Below, one piece after another: positions 41,604 through 47,172 of a stretch of DNA of 64,000 bases. The stretch covers positions 62,001-126,000 of the forward strand of contig JAFGOY010000061.1 of NCBI GenBank assembly GCA_016926255.1, given 5' to 3'. The DNA comes from Anaerolineae bacterium (GTDB lineage: Bacteria > Chloroflexota > Anaerolineae > Aggregatilineales > UBA3940). Each line of letters begins with the position of its first letter. Within the stretch, counting starts at the first letter, position 1. A program made the position numbers and the translations under genes. The notes under the pieces were generated by a model, which saw nothing but the letters and a program-made list of their open reading frames with translations, was not told the DNA's origin and did not search any database.

Positions 41604-44600
41604 TTATGGTGCCGGACTCTCGATGGTCGTTCCCTGGATGGCGATCAGTTCGATGGTTACCTCCCGATCCAACTCTTTACCGAGCGTATCTTCCAGCGCG
41701 TCGATATCGAGCGAGGGCAGATCGCCGGTGGCGTAGAGCGTCCCATTTATCGAAACGCTCTGCCGGGTAACGTCGATGTTCAGGTCGATCAGTTCGGTGC
41801 CTTCCCAGGTAGAGACGATCTGCTGTATCTCCTGGTTGGCCCTTCCCTTAATTTGATCTTCTTCTGCGGCATTATAGAGGACCCCACACAGAGGAACGCT
41901 GAGGATGAACAGCGAAGAGATCGAGACGATCAGGCCCTGCCTGAGCCAGCGCTGGCGCTGGGGAAGCTGCGGCGGGCGAACGCCCAACAGCAGGAAGACG
42001 ACAGCCGAGCTAAAGATGATCGCCACCAGGTTGGTGACGAACAGCAGCAGCGCGCCCATGCTGATCGCAGCACTGCCCAGGGCAATGCCGATCCCGATCG
42101 TGCAGACGGGCGGCATCAACGCGGCGGCGATGGCGACGCCGGGCAGCGCCTCGCCGACTTCTTTACGGGCGATGGCATAAGCCCCTGCCATGCCGGACGC
42201 CAGCGCGACCAGCAGATCGAGGAGATTGGGCTGGGTGCGGGCCAGAACCTCCGGGCTGGCGTGGGATAGCGGGGAGATCAGCGTGAAGATGACAGCGATA
42301 AAGATCGCGGCCAGCACGCCTTGCAGAGTCGAGGTGAGGGCGTTGCCCAGCGTTCGCCCGTCACCGGTGACGATGCCCAGCGACGCCGCGACGATTGGAC
42401 TCATCAGCGGGGCAACGAGCATTGCACCGATGATCACTGCCGGGCTGTTCAAGAGCAAACCCAGCGTGGCGATCACCGCCGAAAGGGTGATCAGCACAAA
42501 ATAGTTGATATTGGGACGGGCGGCGGCGCGAAGATGCTGGTACAGTTCGACCTGTTCTTCAGAAACAAGCGTGGGGAGCAGGTTCGTGAAAAACTGCCAG
42601 GTGCGGCGGGCCAGCAGATTCGTAAAGCCTGTATAGCCGCGCACCAGGGCAACCATCTGCTTGGTGTTCCGGGCGACCTCCCAGGGAAGGTGCCCAAAAT
42701 AGGTGCGGTCGAGGATACCTGCTTCACTTGCCCCTAACAGGATGATATCCTGATCCTGCGAGGCCTCCAGAATACCGGCCAGCGCCGACCGTGCCTGGAG
42801 AACGCGGGGGAGTACCCGGTCGGGATCGCTGAGTTCGTCTCGCAGCCGGTTGACCAGCCTGATACCCGTTTCGACGGCGCTGCCGCCGTCAATTTCGCGG
42901 GCGATGTTGAGCAGCGTCACCATGCCGCCGGATTCGGCAGTGAGCGCCAGGGCCAATTCAGCCGCGCGCGGCGCATGGGGGCCACCGGCTACCGGCACAA
43001 TGACCTGGGATGGCTTGTGCTGCCACTGACCGCGCACGACGATGACATCACAGGGTGCGTTTTCGAGGAGTTCGTCGAGGATTGGTCCCAGGCTCCGATG
43101 GGCGGCGATCATTTCGCGGGCGTTCCAACCGAGTATGAGCGCCTTTGCGCTTTCTTCGGCGACGGTATCGAGAATACCCTGAGAAATGCTGCGGGAAAGC
43201 CGCGTGACGCCTTCAATGGGGACGCCATATTGTTCACCTTCTTCAAGCACCCGTTCGAGCAGGTCGAGTGCCTGCTGTGCTTGAACGCGCTCCGAATCGA
43301 GGGGAAGCTGATCGGGGACTTCCAACACCTGAACAACACTGACATGTCCGTTGTTTTTCCTGGCGATTGCAGCTCCGAAAGCAACCAGGTCGGCGGCGGT
43401 TTCGGGATTGGCAACCGGCACGACGACCGGAAAATCGGAGGTGATATCGGGGGCGTCCTGGAAGACCGTTCGCCCCAACTGGGACGTGCGCATACGTTCC
43501 AGACCACCCTGCCAGTAGATCAAAGCCCCCAACCCGATCCACAGCAGCCCAACGATCAGCACTTCCCACGAGATGGCGACAAGCAGCAGGAAGCTGATCG
43601 CTGCACCGGTGGCCGGGATGATCGGGTAAAGCGGCAGCCGGAAGGCACGATCTTCTGCCCTGGCGTGTTTGCCGAGCATAATCGCCGCGATATTTACGCC
43701 CAATTGCAGCAGTAAAATACTCATTGACGCGACCAGCGCATAGATCAAGATAACGTCGACTCTGCCACCCAACAGCATGACGAGACCTTCACCGGCCAGC
43801 AGCGCCACAGCGGTAACAAGTGCCTGAAAGATAATAAGCAGGGCAGGCGTATCGAAGGTCGTGTAAGAACGCCGGAGCCAGCCGGGTATCCACCCGGCCA
43901 ATCCAATGACCTGGAAACGCCTCAGCATGATCAGGGCAAGAACCTGCCATGAGATGGCGGCTACCAATGAGCCCATGATCAGTGTGATCAACTCACCATA
44001 GCCGGGAAGCAGCCTTTCGGCGAGGGCAGCGAGGTACAACGTGTCGGCGAGGTCCTGTTGTTTGAGAGCAGCCAGAGTTTCACGGGCGAGCGGGGTGCTG
44101 ACCAGCGCTAGAGTCCCCCCGATCAAGGCACCGCCAAACAGTAAAAGCAGTGCGGTGCGTGGTGTCCGCTTGCGCCGGTCACCGGTTTCCGATAATAGTT
44201 CGATTGCCCATTGACCAACTAAGAGAAGAACGACTGTATAGAAGAAATGATCCTGTGTCGAGAGATCGGCGGCGGCGTTTACCGGCTGCCCGGTCCAGTG
44301 AAAAGAAAGCGTAGCCAACAGGACGACCAGCCCGACGATCACGCTGCTGATCAGCCAGATACCGAGCTTCCATGGTGGCCGCGAACCGATGGTATTGGTC
44401 AGGACGAAAAAGAGCAGCGGCAGTGCGATCAACCCGGCGGTAAGTAAAGAACTGTCGATTGACCAGCCTGTTACCAGGACAATCAGCCGACCGGTGTACT
44501 GGGCAAACAGTTGAACCAGGTAGGCACTCAGCCCGGCCCAGCCAAGAATATGAACCCACCCGGCGAAAAATGTAAAATCGTTCCGCTCGGCGGCCTTGAT

Positions 44601-44867
44601 CAGCCGGTAGCTGCCGCCAGAATACCCGATCCAGCTCCGCAGTTCGAGACAGCTCAACACGGTGGGCAGCAGAACGAATATCGAGATGAAATAGGTCCAT
44701 TCCGCACTCTGGGAGAACCTGGCGACCGGGCCGAGCAGCCCAAAGACTCCGATCACCAGCCACATCCCGATCCCCATCAGTAAGATGGCAGGCTGGCGAA
44801 GGCGGAAACTGCGCCGCAGGGAGATCAGCGAGGCTGCGGGCTTGTGATCGGTTGGTGTGGATGACAT
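41604..44867 (-). CDS. APC-type permease fused to two universal-stress domains and a DUF389 domain
   Basis: This 1087-residue membrane protein joins three known parts. Residues about 18-470 form a 12-helix amino acid/polyamine/cation (APC) permease. About 479-615 and 619-750 are two cytosolic universal stress protein domains, with IVPVAGGPHAPRAAELALAL near 623 marking the second. About 789-966 is a DUF389 membrane domain (IIGAMLVAPLMSPIVAASLG near 810). The C-terminal 90 residues form a soluble domain resembling BON-like units. Permease-USP fusions are known in archaea and bacteria; the added DUF389 is unusual. USP domains may sense nucleotide or stress and gate transport. ATG 44867 has AAAGG 8 nt upstream; the frame is open to 44945 but without a ribosome-binding site. 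Substrate unknown. Confidence 0.88.
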   Translation of the reverse strand: MSSTPTDHKPAASLISLRRSFRLRQPAILLMGIGMWLVIGVFGLLGPVARFSQSAEWTYFISIFVLLPTVLSCLELRSWIGYSGGSYRLIKAAERNDFTFFAGWVHILGWAGLSAYLVQLFAQYTGRLIVLVTGWSIDSSLLTAGLIALPLLFFVLTNTIGSRPPWKLGIWLISSVIVGLVVLLATLSFHWTGQPVNAAADLSTQDHFFYTVVLLLVGQWAIELLSETGDRRKRTPRTALLLLFGGALIGGTLALVSTPLARETLAALKQQDLADTLYLAALAERLLPGYGELITLIMGSLVAAISWQVLALIMLRRFQVIGLAGWIPGWLRRSYTTFDTPALLIIFQALVTAVALLAGEGLVMLLGGRVDVILIYALVASMSILLLQLGVNIAAIMLGKHARAEDRAFRLPLYPIIPATGAAISFLLLVAISWEVLIVGLLWIGLGALIYWQGGLERMRTSQLGRTVFQDAPDITSDFPVVVPVANPETAADLVAFGAAIARKNNGHVSVVQVLEVPDQLPLDSERVQAQQALDLLERVLEEGEQYGVPIEGVTRLSRSISQGILDTVAEESAKALILGWNAREMIAAHRSLGPILDELLENAPCDVIVVRGQWQHKPSQVIVPVAGGPHAPRAAELALALTAESGGMVTLLNIAREIDGGSAVETGIRLVNRLRDELSDPDRVLPRVLQARSALAGILEASQDQDIILLGASEAGILDRTYFGHLPWEVARNTKQMVALVRGYTGFTNLLARRTWQFFTNLLPTLVSEEQVELYQHLRAAARPNINYFVLITLSAVIATLGLLLNSPAVIIGAMLVAPLMSPIVAASLGIVTGDGRTLGNALTSTLQGVLAAIFIAVIFTLISPLSHASPEVLARTQPNLLDLLVALASGMAGAYAIARKEVGEALPGVAIAAALMPPVCTIGIGIALGSAAISMGALLLFVTNLVAIIFSSAVVFLLLGVRPPQLPQRQRWLRQGLIVSISSLFILSVPLCGVLYNAAEEDQIKGRANQEIQQIVSTWEGTELIDLNIDVTRQSVSINGTLYATGDLPSLDIDALEDTLGKELDREVTIELIAIQGTTIESPAP

Positions 44868-44932: not shown

Positions 44933-44954
44933 CCCCTCTCCTCATGGCGAGGGG
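44933..44954 (-). other. CCCCTC/GAGGGG stem-loop upstream of the permease fusion
   Basis: CCCCTC (44933-44938) and GAGGGG (44949-44954) flank a 10-nt loop, 66 nt before the permease-fusion start. Similar CCCTC/GAGGG palindromes are common dispersed intergenic elements in bacteria, but only one copy is visible here. Confidence 0.4.
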
Positions 44955-45134
44955 ACTTAAGCCCTTATTTTGCCTGTATACGGAAATTGCGGCGTTATTT
45001 CTTTACAACCAATAACCACTAACGATAATGGCCGGTTGGTTGTCTTTCTCAGGGGATACCATACAGCAAGCAATGGGGTGTGTCAACGAATTGCCAATAT
45101 GATGTCATATCAATTGGTCGGGGCCGCCTTGAGG

Positions 45135-45860
45135 CTAAAGCAGCGTCTTGAGTTTTGCCAGCAGGTGTTGTTTCGACGCTGCACCGACGATACGGTCTAC
45201 TACCGCACCATTCTGAATGAACAGCATGGTGGGGATTCCCTGCACGCCATATCGACCGGCGAAATGCGGATTCTCGTCGACGTTCAATTTTGCGATTCGA
45301 AGCCTTCCGCCGAATTCCTTTGCTAACTGGTCGAGAATGGGGGCCACCATCCGGCAGGGGGCACACCAGGGTGCCCAGAAATCGACAAGGACCGGGATGG
45401 GCGATTTCAAAACCTGCTGCTCAAAAGTCGCATCAGTGACCATTACCGGTCGGCCGTCGTATGCCGGACGGCTGCCGCCGGGTGTATCTGGCGAGCGGTG
45501 GGACTTCTTTTCCCTGATGGGTTCTGGCCCATTTCCGAGCAGATAGTCAGCGTAGCGATTGATCTCGGCGGCCTTTGGATTGTCAGCGCGGGTGACTTCT
45601 TTACCATCCCTGACGCCGATTAGGGTGATGGTGCCCGTGAGACCAAACTGGTTCGCGGCAATGGGATTATCCTGCCAGTTTATCTTGGCGATGATCAATG
45701 TCCCGGCTTTCGTTTTTGCGAGATCGATCATCGCCTGGCTGAGGGGTTCAGGCAGCGATTTGCCATCCCAGAAAAGAATGAGGCTTGGGATTGGTGCAGC
45801 GAGCAGGCGGTCGAGACTTTGATCGTTTGAAATAATGGGTGCATCAAAAGCACGGATCAC
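45135..45860 (-). CDS. Double thioredoxin-like protein, only the second domain has CxxC
   Basis: This 241-residue cytosolic protein has two thioredoxin-fold halves. The C-terminal half (about 135-241) carries FWAPWCAPCRMVAP with active-site WCAPC near 166 and the cis-Pro GIPTM near 209, a standard thioredoxin. The N-terminal half (about 10-100) starts SLILFWDGKSLPEPLS, where the CxxC position has no Cys, so it is redox-inactive and may bind partners. The linker is basic and Gly/Pro-rich (about 100-125). It may reduce disulfides of specific targets. It stands between the permease fusion and dnaN on the minus strand with its own gap of 172 nt upstream. Confidence 0.88.
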   Translation of the reverse strand: MIRAFDAPIISNDQSLDRLLAAPIPSLILFWDGKSLPEPLSQAMIDLAKTKAGTLIIAKINWQDNPIAANQFGLTGTITLIGVRDGKEVTRADNPKAAEINRYADYLLGNGPEPIREKKSHRSPDTPGGSRPAYDGRPVMVTDATFEQQVLKSPIPVLVDFWAPWCAPCRMVAPILDQLAKEFGGRLRIAKLNVDENPHFAGRYGVQGIPTMLFIQNGAVVDRIVGAASKQHLLAKLKTLL

Positions 45861-45976
45861 GGAACTATCCTTAACATGGTCACAGTTGACGATTTTTCTG
45901 GCGGTTCACATCACTAAAGATAGCGAACGAATATTAGATCAACGATAGAAACGCATCAGTGTTTTGATATAAACGA

Positions 45977-46006
45977 CAGGAGTCCGGCTCGTTGGCCGGA
46001 CTCCTG
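45977..46006 (-). terminator. Stem-loop terminator after dnaN
   Basis: CAGGAGTCCGGC and GCCGGACTCCTG form a 12-bp stem with a 6-nt loop 26 nt after the dnaN stop. The minus-strand tail TCGTTTATATC is only moderately T-rich, so termination may be partial. Confidence 0.75.
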
Positions 46007-46032
46007 TATAGATTTTCGGCAGGCGGGGCGTC

Positions 46033-47172
46033 TTACCGCCCGATGTGCATCGGCATGATAACGTGGGTGAAACTTTCGTCGCCAACCGGCTGGATGACGC
46101 CGGGTTTGTCCGGGCGAATGGTCTTGATCACAACCTGATCCTGCGGAATGACGCTCAGGACATCGATCAGATAGCGGACGTTGAAGGCGATTTCCAGACC
46201 GTCGCCCTCGATGCTGGCATCAAGCACGACTTCGTTTTCGCCGGTTTCGGATGCCTGGGCGCGTATCCTGACGATGCCGCCCATGCCGTCCTGGGGTTCG
46301 GCTACAAAGCGGACGGTGTGATTCGCTTCACGGGCAAAAATGTCGGCGCGTTTGCAGGCACGCAGCAGGTCGGCGGTGTAGACGATGGTTCGCGTGGAAA
46401 TGTCTCGCGGGATGATCTGGCGATAATCGGGGAAGGTGCCATCGATCAGCTGCGAGGCGACATTGATACTTTCCATATGGAATAAGACCTGGGAGCGATC
46501 ACGCGGGAGAACCAGTTCGGAGAACTCTTCATCGTCCGAACTGATACGGGCCAGTTCCATCAGGGCTTTAGAGGGGATCACCATCAGGAAGCTTTCGTAG
46601 AATTCGGCTTCGATGGGTATCTCGCGGACAGACAACCGGAAGCCATCGGCGGCGGCCATGGTCAGCAGGCCGTTTTCGTAGCTGACCGAGACGCCGGTCA
46701 GGATCGGGCGGCTGTCGTCACGGGCGGCGGCGAAAGCGACCATGTTGATCGTCTCTTTCAGTAAATCCGCCGGAATGGGGAGCCGCTCGTCTTCTTCGCC
46801 GGGTTCCGGGATTGGCGGGAATTCGTAGGCATCGATCCCCTTGATGGTGGCGGTCGTCGAGCCGCAGGCGAGGTGAAGGGCGTTCGTCCTGACCGCAACT
46901 TCCAGGTCGACGCGTTCGGGTGAAAGGGTGTTGACCAGATCGCTGAGGGTGCGGGCCGGGACGGTGATCGCGCCGTCCTCCTCGACAGAAGCGCCAATCC
47001 AGGCGGTAATGCCCATATCGAGATTGGTTGCGGCCAGGCGCAGCCGCCCGTTATCCGTGGCAAGCAGCACATTGGAAAGGACCGGCAGTGTAGTGCGCGT
47101 TCCAACTGCCCGCCCGACAGTATTCAGCCCGCGTGCCAGATTATCTTGCAGGCATGAGACTTTCATACCCAT
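46033..47172 (-). CDS. dnaN: DNA polymerase III beta sliding clamp
   Basis: This 379-residue protein matches the bacterial beta clamp, which encircles DNA and holds the replicase. Diagnostic stretches are RTTLPVLSNVLLAT near 26, AAADGFRLSVRE near 172, the IDGTFPDYRQIIP segment near 241, and the C-terminal FTHVIMPMHIGR, equivalent to the conserved MPMR(L/I) end that contacts partners. Length and three-domain pattern are normal. ATG 47172 has GAGG 5 nt upstream. It is not next to dnaA or recF, and no DnaA boxes were seen, so this is not evidently the origin. A palindrome lies about 70 nt upstream. Confidence 0.97.
   Translation of the reverse strand: MGMKVSCLQDNLARGLNTVGRAVGTRTTLPVLSNVLLATDNGRLRLAATNLDMGITAWIGASVEEDGAITVPARTLSDLVNTLSPERVDLEVAVRTNALHLACGSTTATIKGIDAYEFPPIPEPGEEDERLPIPADLLKETINMVAFAAARDDSRPILTGVSVSYENGLLTMAAADGFRLSVREIPIEAEFYESFLMVIPSKALMELARISSDDEEFSELVLPRDRSQVLFHMESINVASQLIDGTFPDYRQIIPRDISTRTIVYTADLLRACKRADIFAREANHTVRFVAEPQDGMGGIVRIRAQASETGENEVVLDASIEGDGLEIAFNVRYLIDVLSVIPQDQVVIKTIRPDKPGVIQPVGDESFTHVIMPMHIGR

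Follow-up and report, generated by a model that had tools for sequence, protein, structure and literature searches.

The described proteins nearest in layout to the one analysed here are those of the SLC12/CCC group and KimA. The CTD of the prokaryotic CCC consists of two dimerising subdomains that resemble universal-stress (USP) domains (PMC10043231), the CTD of KCC1 binds ATP (PMC8280820), and KimA carries a domain similar to the CCC CTD (PMC6994465). DUF389 is a membrane domain that occurs in bacteria and archaea; no function is described for it in the literature searched, in which no paper treating the subject was found (DUF3893 and DUF3892, which that search also brought up, have no more than the beginning of the name in common with it), and a sequence search found no solved structure. 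We analysed a 64,000-nucleotide stretch (the window) from the 4.6-Mb draft genome of an Anaerolineae bacterium, assembled in 82 contigs, where a single gene joins an APC permease unit and two USP domains to DUF389; its product is the only DUF389 protein of that genome.

The gene and its modules

The reverse-strand frame at 41604-44867 is unbroken by any stop and encodes 1087 amino acids. An alternative in-frame ATG at 44945, 26 codons upstream, would give a protein of 1113 residues; the N-termini of homologues fall close to the 44867 start. Upstream of this start is GGGAAAGG. From the N-terminus, the order of modules is APC permease unit, USP A, USP B, DUF389, and an alpha/beta tail, as follows (window coordinates).

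41604..44867, reverse strand: whole gene, 1087 amino acids in one frame (alternative ATG at 44945)
45058..45086, reverse strand: sigma-70-like promoter TTGACA-17-TATGGT, upstream of the fusion gene, a candidate by consensus match alone
43467..44795, reverse strand: APC-type (LeuT-fold) permease unit, about residues 25-467, 12 TM, TM1 substrate motif lost
43032..43427, reverse strand: USP domain A, residues 481-612
42633..43007, reverse strand: USP domain B, about residues 621-745
41856..42560, reverse strand: DUF389 membrane region, about residues 770-1004 (Pfam core 816-952), 7 predicted TM
41607..41855, reverse strand: stalk and alpha/beta tail, residues 1005-1087, predicted extracytoplasmic

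Pfam, a homologue profile, and AlphaFold together give this composition, as the original prediction had proposed from the letters of the DNA. The AlphaFold model of the whole protein (pLDDT 77, pTM 0.56) places 12 TM helices, with TM1 interrupted, in residues 25-464; two alpha/beta domains, the DUF389 bundle, a stalk, and the tail follow. Upstream of the fusion gene lies a thioredoxin-like gene (45135-47172, reverse strand), which is also found in one close relative (L032 10572-12556, reverse strand); in the window it is adjoined by dnaN, an arrangement that is not kept more widely. The gene-neighbour comparison revealed no conserved neighbour beyond close relatives, and no pathway is backed by context.

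Distribution of the four-part fusion

Eight further genomes from the family were compared, and four of them, each from another genus (G002, G003, G006, and G007), encode the same order of modules in one frame; these relatives are 44-58% identical, and the G002 copy ends at a contig edge. In the class as a whole, full-length matches occur in at least 29 genomes out of 396, spread over 16 families, and two more came from elsewhere in the phylum, in families that do not belong to the class. Scanning GTDB contigs, with an alignment of nine sequences as the query (a single-protein query gave no matches, and a 25-sequence alignment was too diverse), returned 22 loci with all four modules, every one titled Chloroflexi, Chloroflexota, or a subgroup of these; the nearest named relatives were Anaerolineae. 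The same scan found APC-USP-USP proteins without DUF389 in records titled Chrysiogenales, Aminicenantes, Bacteroidetes, Desulfonema, and Gemmatimonadales. None of 198 genomes from the phylum of Aminicenantes had the four-part order, and both halves of the fusion occur there separately. A plasmid search detected no four-part protein, and its match on haloarchaeal plasmids was to the permease-USP part only.

The gene cannot be an artefact, since the colinear, stop-free frame recurs in assemblies made independently from other genera. The host genome is of course a draft in 82 contigs, but a frameshift, mis-join, or chimeric contig as the origin of the gene is virtually inconceivable, having already been refuted by the many independent assemblies that share the uninterrupted frame. 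The four-part fusion is thus real and conserved; it is made of known families and is undescribed in the literature searched. It had been called unusual, and this is correct in so far as it is rare outside Chloroflexota and our literature search found no description of the architecture, let alone many described proteins that share it. Within Anaerolineae, however, the four-part order is an old and widespread family, and all named loci lie within Chloroflexota.

The permease unit

As a single sequence, the permease unit scores slightly below the Pfam cut-offs (AA_permease_C, 24.1 of 27 bits) and matches the TIGR00909 "amino acid transporter" model at 32.9 bits. A profile built from 23 homologues is decisive for APC: over profile positions 10-426, its best APC match is GkApcT (5oqt, E 1.7e-44), followed by CAT and LAT proteins, ApcT, and AdiC, with SLC12 matched only weakly (E 1.7e-7) and ranking under the amino-acid transporters. 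With its 12-TM LeuT fold, this profile similarity, and a fold match of TM 0.75-0.79 of the target, the unit belongs to the APC superfamily.

The canonical amino-acid substrate site, taken as G[AST]G[I/V]F in TM1 together with F-x-G-[YF]-E in TM6, was nevertheless not found in the fused proteins. The TM1 motif is kept in all eight APC-USP-USP proteins that are without DUF389, where it reads G-A-G-I-F throughout, vs none of 37 fused proteins; the count is the same for the slightly wider form G[AST]G[IVLA][FY], and only the looser GxG[IVLA][FY] recovers five of the 37. TM1 of the window protein reads LVIGVF. Similarly, the TM6 signature is retained in 8/8 APC-USP-USP proteins and eroded in the fused ones. 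Residues that matter at the level of the fold (GGxY, GW, and several prolines) do persist in the fused permease, so that a change of substrate is no less likely than a complete loss of transport.

Mean pairwise identity among 25 fused proteins is 26% in the permease, 37% and 34% in the two USPs, and 61% in DUF389. The corresponding values for the APC-USP-USP set, which spans several phyla but numbers only eight sequences, are 62% for the permease and 37% and 33% for the USPs. Constraint is thus reversed between the two architectures, which suggests that the fused permease is relaxed or repurposed. The original prediction of an APC permease holds for fold and ancestry; with the TM1 substrate motif lost in every fused homologue examined, ordinary amino-acid permease function is doubtful. 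Note that the window genome (G000) also encodes two APC-USP-USP proteins with an intact substrate motif (L044 7284-9710, forward strand, on contig C15, and L045 7356-9797, forward strand, on contig C82), and one genome thus holds both conserved and degenerate permease types.

The tandem USP domains

Pfam Usp (PF00582) matches the protein at 81.1 bits over two stretches, which places both domains in that family, and Foldseek aligned them with the tandem USP TTHA0350 in its ATP-bound structure (3ab8, TM 0.71). A motif scan of 40 fused proteins did not recover ATP-binding USPs as usually defined: the full motif, G-2x-G-9x-G(S/T) with the beta1-loop Asp, is present in USP A of none and in USP B of one, and the Asp itself in four and two, respectively. 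A GGPHA-type loop replaces the ATP motif in most fused USP B domains. A degenerate motif need not prevent ATP binding by a USP, as one half of TTHA0350 illustrates (PMC3673472), and the fused USPs may therefore bind ATP too. A nucleotide sensor between two membrane modules had been proposed; the USPs do lie between two such modules, but the case for a sensor is weakened by the absence of the canonical motif. When APC-USP-USP, USP-USP-DUF389, and four-part proteins are compared, each USP matches its counterpart in the same position (A with A, B with B), and one tandem USP module is therefore shared by all three architectures.

DUF389 and the C-terminal tail

Assignment of the second membrane module to DUF389 (PF04087) is straightforward, at 140.7 bits against a cut-off of 23.9, with model positions 1-137 aligned to residues 816-952. 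In the model of the whole protein, a helix of 51 residues connects the DUF389 bundle to a tail of beta-beta-alpha-beta form; modelled by itself, DUF389 plus tail reached a pLDDT of 84. The cytoplasmic loops of DUF389 are rich in Lys and Arg, and in the tail acidic residues outweigh basic ones (7.5 K/R, 14.7 D/E); this positive-inside pattern and the acidic tail argue for seven TM helices with the tail outside. Independent support comes from permease-less relatives that carry SH3_3, or LTD plus PLD domains, beyond the tail. The soluble tail originally predicted is present as an alpha/beta domain, and is most likely extracellular.

The permease-less relatives include L073 (760-3471, forward strand), a USP-USP-DUF389 protein with a C-terminal bacterial SH3 domain, and L134 (1-3696, reverse strand), where a single frame, at least 1232 amino acids long, continues from USP-USP-DUF389 into a Lamin Tail Domain and a PLD-like domain. 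In one subclade of fused proteins (L059, L061, L062, L063, and L064) the tail is doubled in tandem, at about residues 1075-1160, the second copy scoring weakly.

The DUF389 region carries the motifs AMLVAPLMSP and LPGVAIAAALMPP. The segments around NSPAVIIGAMLVAPLMSP and EALPGVAIAAALMPP are marginally alike (hhalign P 0.0018, probability 15%), and the helices that hold them are predicted to run in opposite directions, a hint that the two motif-bearing helices may form an inverted repeat. Foldseek also related DUF389 plus tail to zinc transporters of the CDF/YiiP type (E 7e-4), but TM was below 0.31. Judged by six TM helices, metal-site D/H in TM2 and TM5, and a cytoplasmic CTD, this candidate was rejected: no metal-site D/H is conserved in the alignment, and the tail is predicted to be outside whereas the CDF CTD is cytoplasmic.

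Three genomes of the phylum of Aminicenantes encode a further DUF389 fusion, in which the partner is a Na_H_Exchanger domain and the C-terminal region is long:

L124, 1177-4308, forward strand: Na_H_Exchanger-DUF389
L125, 1259-4372, reverse strand: Na_H_Exchanger-DUF389
L136, 542-3673, reverse strand: Na_H_Exchanger-DUF389

That DUF389 has repeatedly been joined to secondary transporters is the chief hint of a place for it in membrane transport.

Ancestry of the fusion

A DUF389 tree rooted on DUF389 proteins that are devoid of USPs had permease-less USP-USP-DUF389 proteins branching from within the fused ones at two or more points, and a single clade of all fused proteins was rejected (p-AU 0.0096). 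This is most simply explained if the ancestor in the Chloroflexota lineage was a four-part protein from which the permease was lost several times; the permease thus looks old, relaxed, and repeatedly lost. This history is provisional because the outgroup is distant and several inner branches have only moderate support. Two proteins labelled permease-less in an unrooted tree were rejected as such: L095 is truncated at a contig edge, and L110 (4919-8060, forward strand) is a fused gene whose frame is broken between the permease and the USP/DUF389 parts.

Interpretation of the fusion

Sequence comparison establishes the architecture and the fact that it is conserved, as well as the loss of the substrate signature in the APC unit and the strong constraint under which DUF389 evolves. 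The reading we prefer, and to which we give roughly even credence, is a regulated membrane assembly laid out like SLC12 or KimA. An APC-type LeuT-fold unit is joined to DUF389 through a cytoplasmic tandem-USP platform, which probably serves for dimerisation and regulation as in SLC12 and KimA; DUF389 would be the conserved working unit and probably act as a transporter or channel for ions or solutes, and the C-terminal tail would stand outside the cell on its long helical stalk. The APC unit would be a scaffold or sensor (a "pseudo-permease"), or have an altered substrate, any of which would account for its fast evolution and for the several losses that left USP-USP-DUF389. A more far-reaching version, in which DUF389 is an unrecognised transporter or channel acting as a plug-in effector for other membrane proteins, and in which an APC transporter has become, in Chloroflexota, a non-transporting pseudo-permease that senses a ligand and controls DUF389 via the tandem-USP coupler, strikes us as rather unlikely.

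The roles could also be the other way round, with the APC unit an active transporter of changed substrate that DUF389 and the USPs regulate, as the USP-like domains of SLC12 and KimA do. A LeuT fold that is complete in the AlphaFold model (12 TM, TM1 broken), a layout nearest to those same transporters, the passing of Pfam AA_permease_2 by some fused members (L091, 83.6 bits), and GxG[IVLA][FY] in five of 37 proteins all favour this; it is nonetheless somewhat unlikely, given 26% identity in the permease against 61% in DUF389, a TM1 motif gone from 37/37, and several lineages nested among the fused proteins that dropped the permease and retained USP-USP-DUF389. Two independent transporters, linked for co-expression but functionally uncoupled, would fit the unrelated partners of DUF389 (APC, Na+/H+ exchanger, or USPs alone); that the order is preserved in at least 16 families, and that the modules are bridged by a shared pair of USPs, makes mere linkage quite improbable.

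The main interest is less the number of domains than the reversed constraint and a testable role for DUF389. Repeated transporter fusion, strong constraint, and an APC unit whose substrate signature seems lost together make a concrete, testable hypothesis for this domain, and the fusion may be a bacterial case of a transporter turned sensor or scaffold.

Comparison with known systems

The DUF389 membrane domain is shared with TIGR00341, TIGR00271, and PF04087, families without an assigned function. The three Na_H_Exchanger-DUF389 proteins likewise join a secondary transporter to DUF389, but the transporter is from another superfamily and no USPs were found in them. The USP-USP-DUF389 proteins of Chloroflexota (about 600-770 amino acids) have the same USP pair, DUF389, and tail; they differ in having no permease, and are probably derived by its loss. 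APC-USP-USP permeases (about 760-830 amino acids, including those on C15 and C82 of the window genome and haloarchaeal proteins annotated "amino acid permease") show the permease-USP-USP order and matching USP A and B, but have no DUF389, and their permease is highly conserved with GAGIF intact.

By structure, Foldseek with the whole model ranked KCC3 and NKCC1 first (E to 1e-15), then KimA, and then GkApcT (TM 0.75) and BasC. KimA, a KUP-family protein of Bacillus subtilis, similarly combines a LeuT-fold unit with a dimerising cytoplasmic domain of nucleotide-binding type (PMC6994465), though with a single such domain and no DUF389. The best whole-length structural match is to SLC12 and the prokaryotic CCC (Methanosarcina acetivorans CTD), in which an APC-fold unit also precedes two USP-like subdomains; they are without DUF389, identity is 13%, and whole-length TM-scores are only 0.3-0.4, indicating that the layout of modules is alike and the overall packing is not. 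Because its APC and tandem-USP layout parallels that of human SLC12, the fusion could be useful as a bacterial model of platform regulation.
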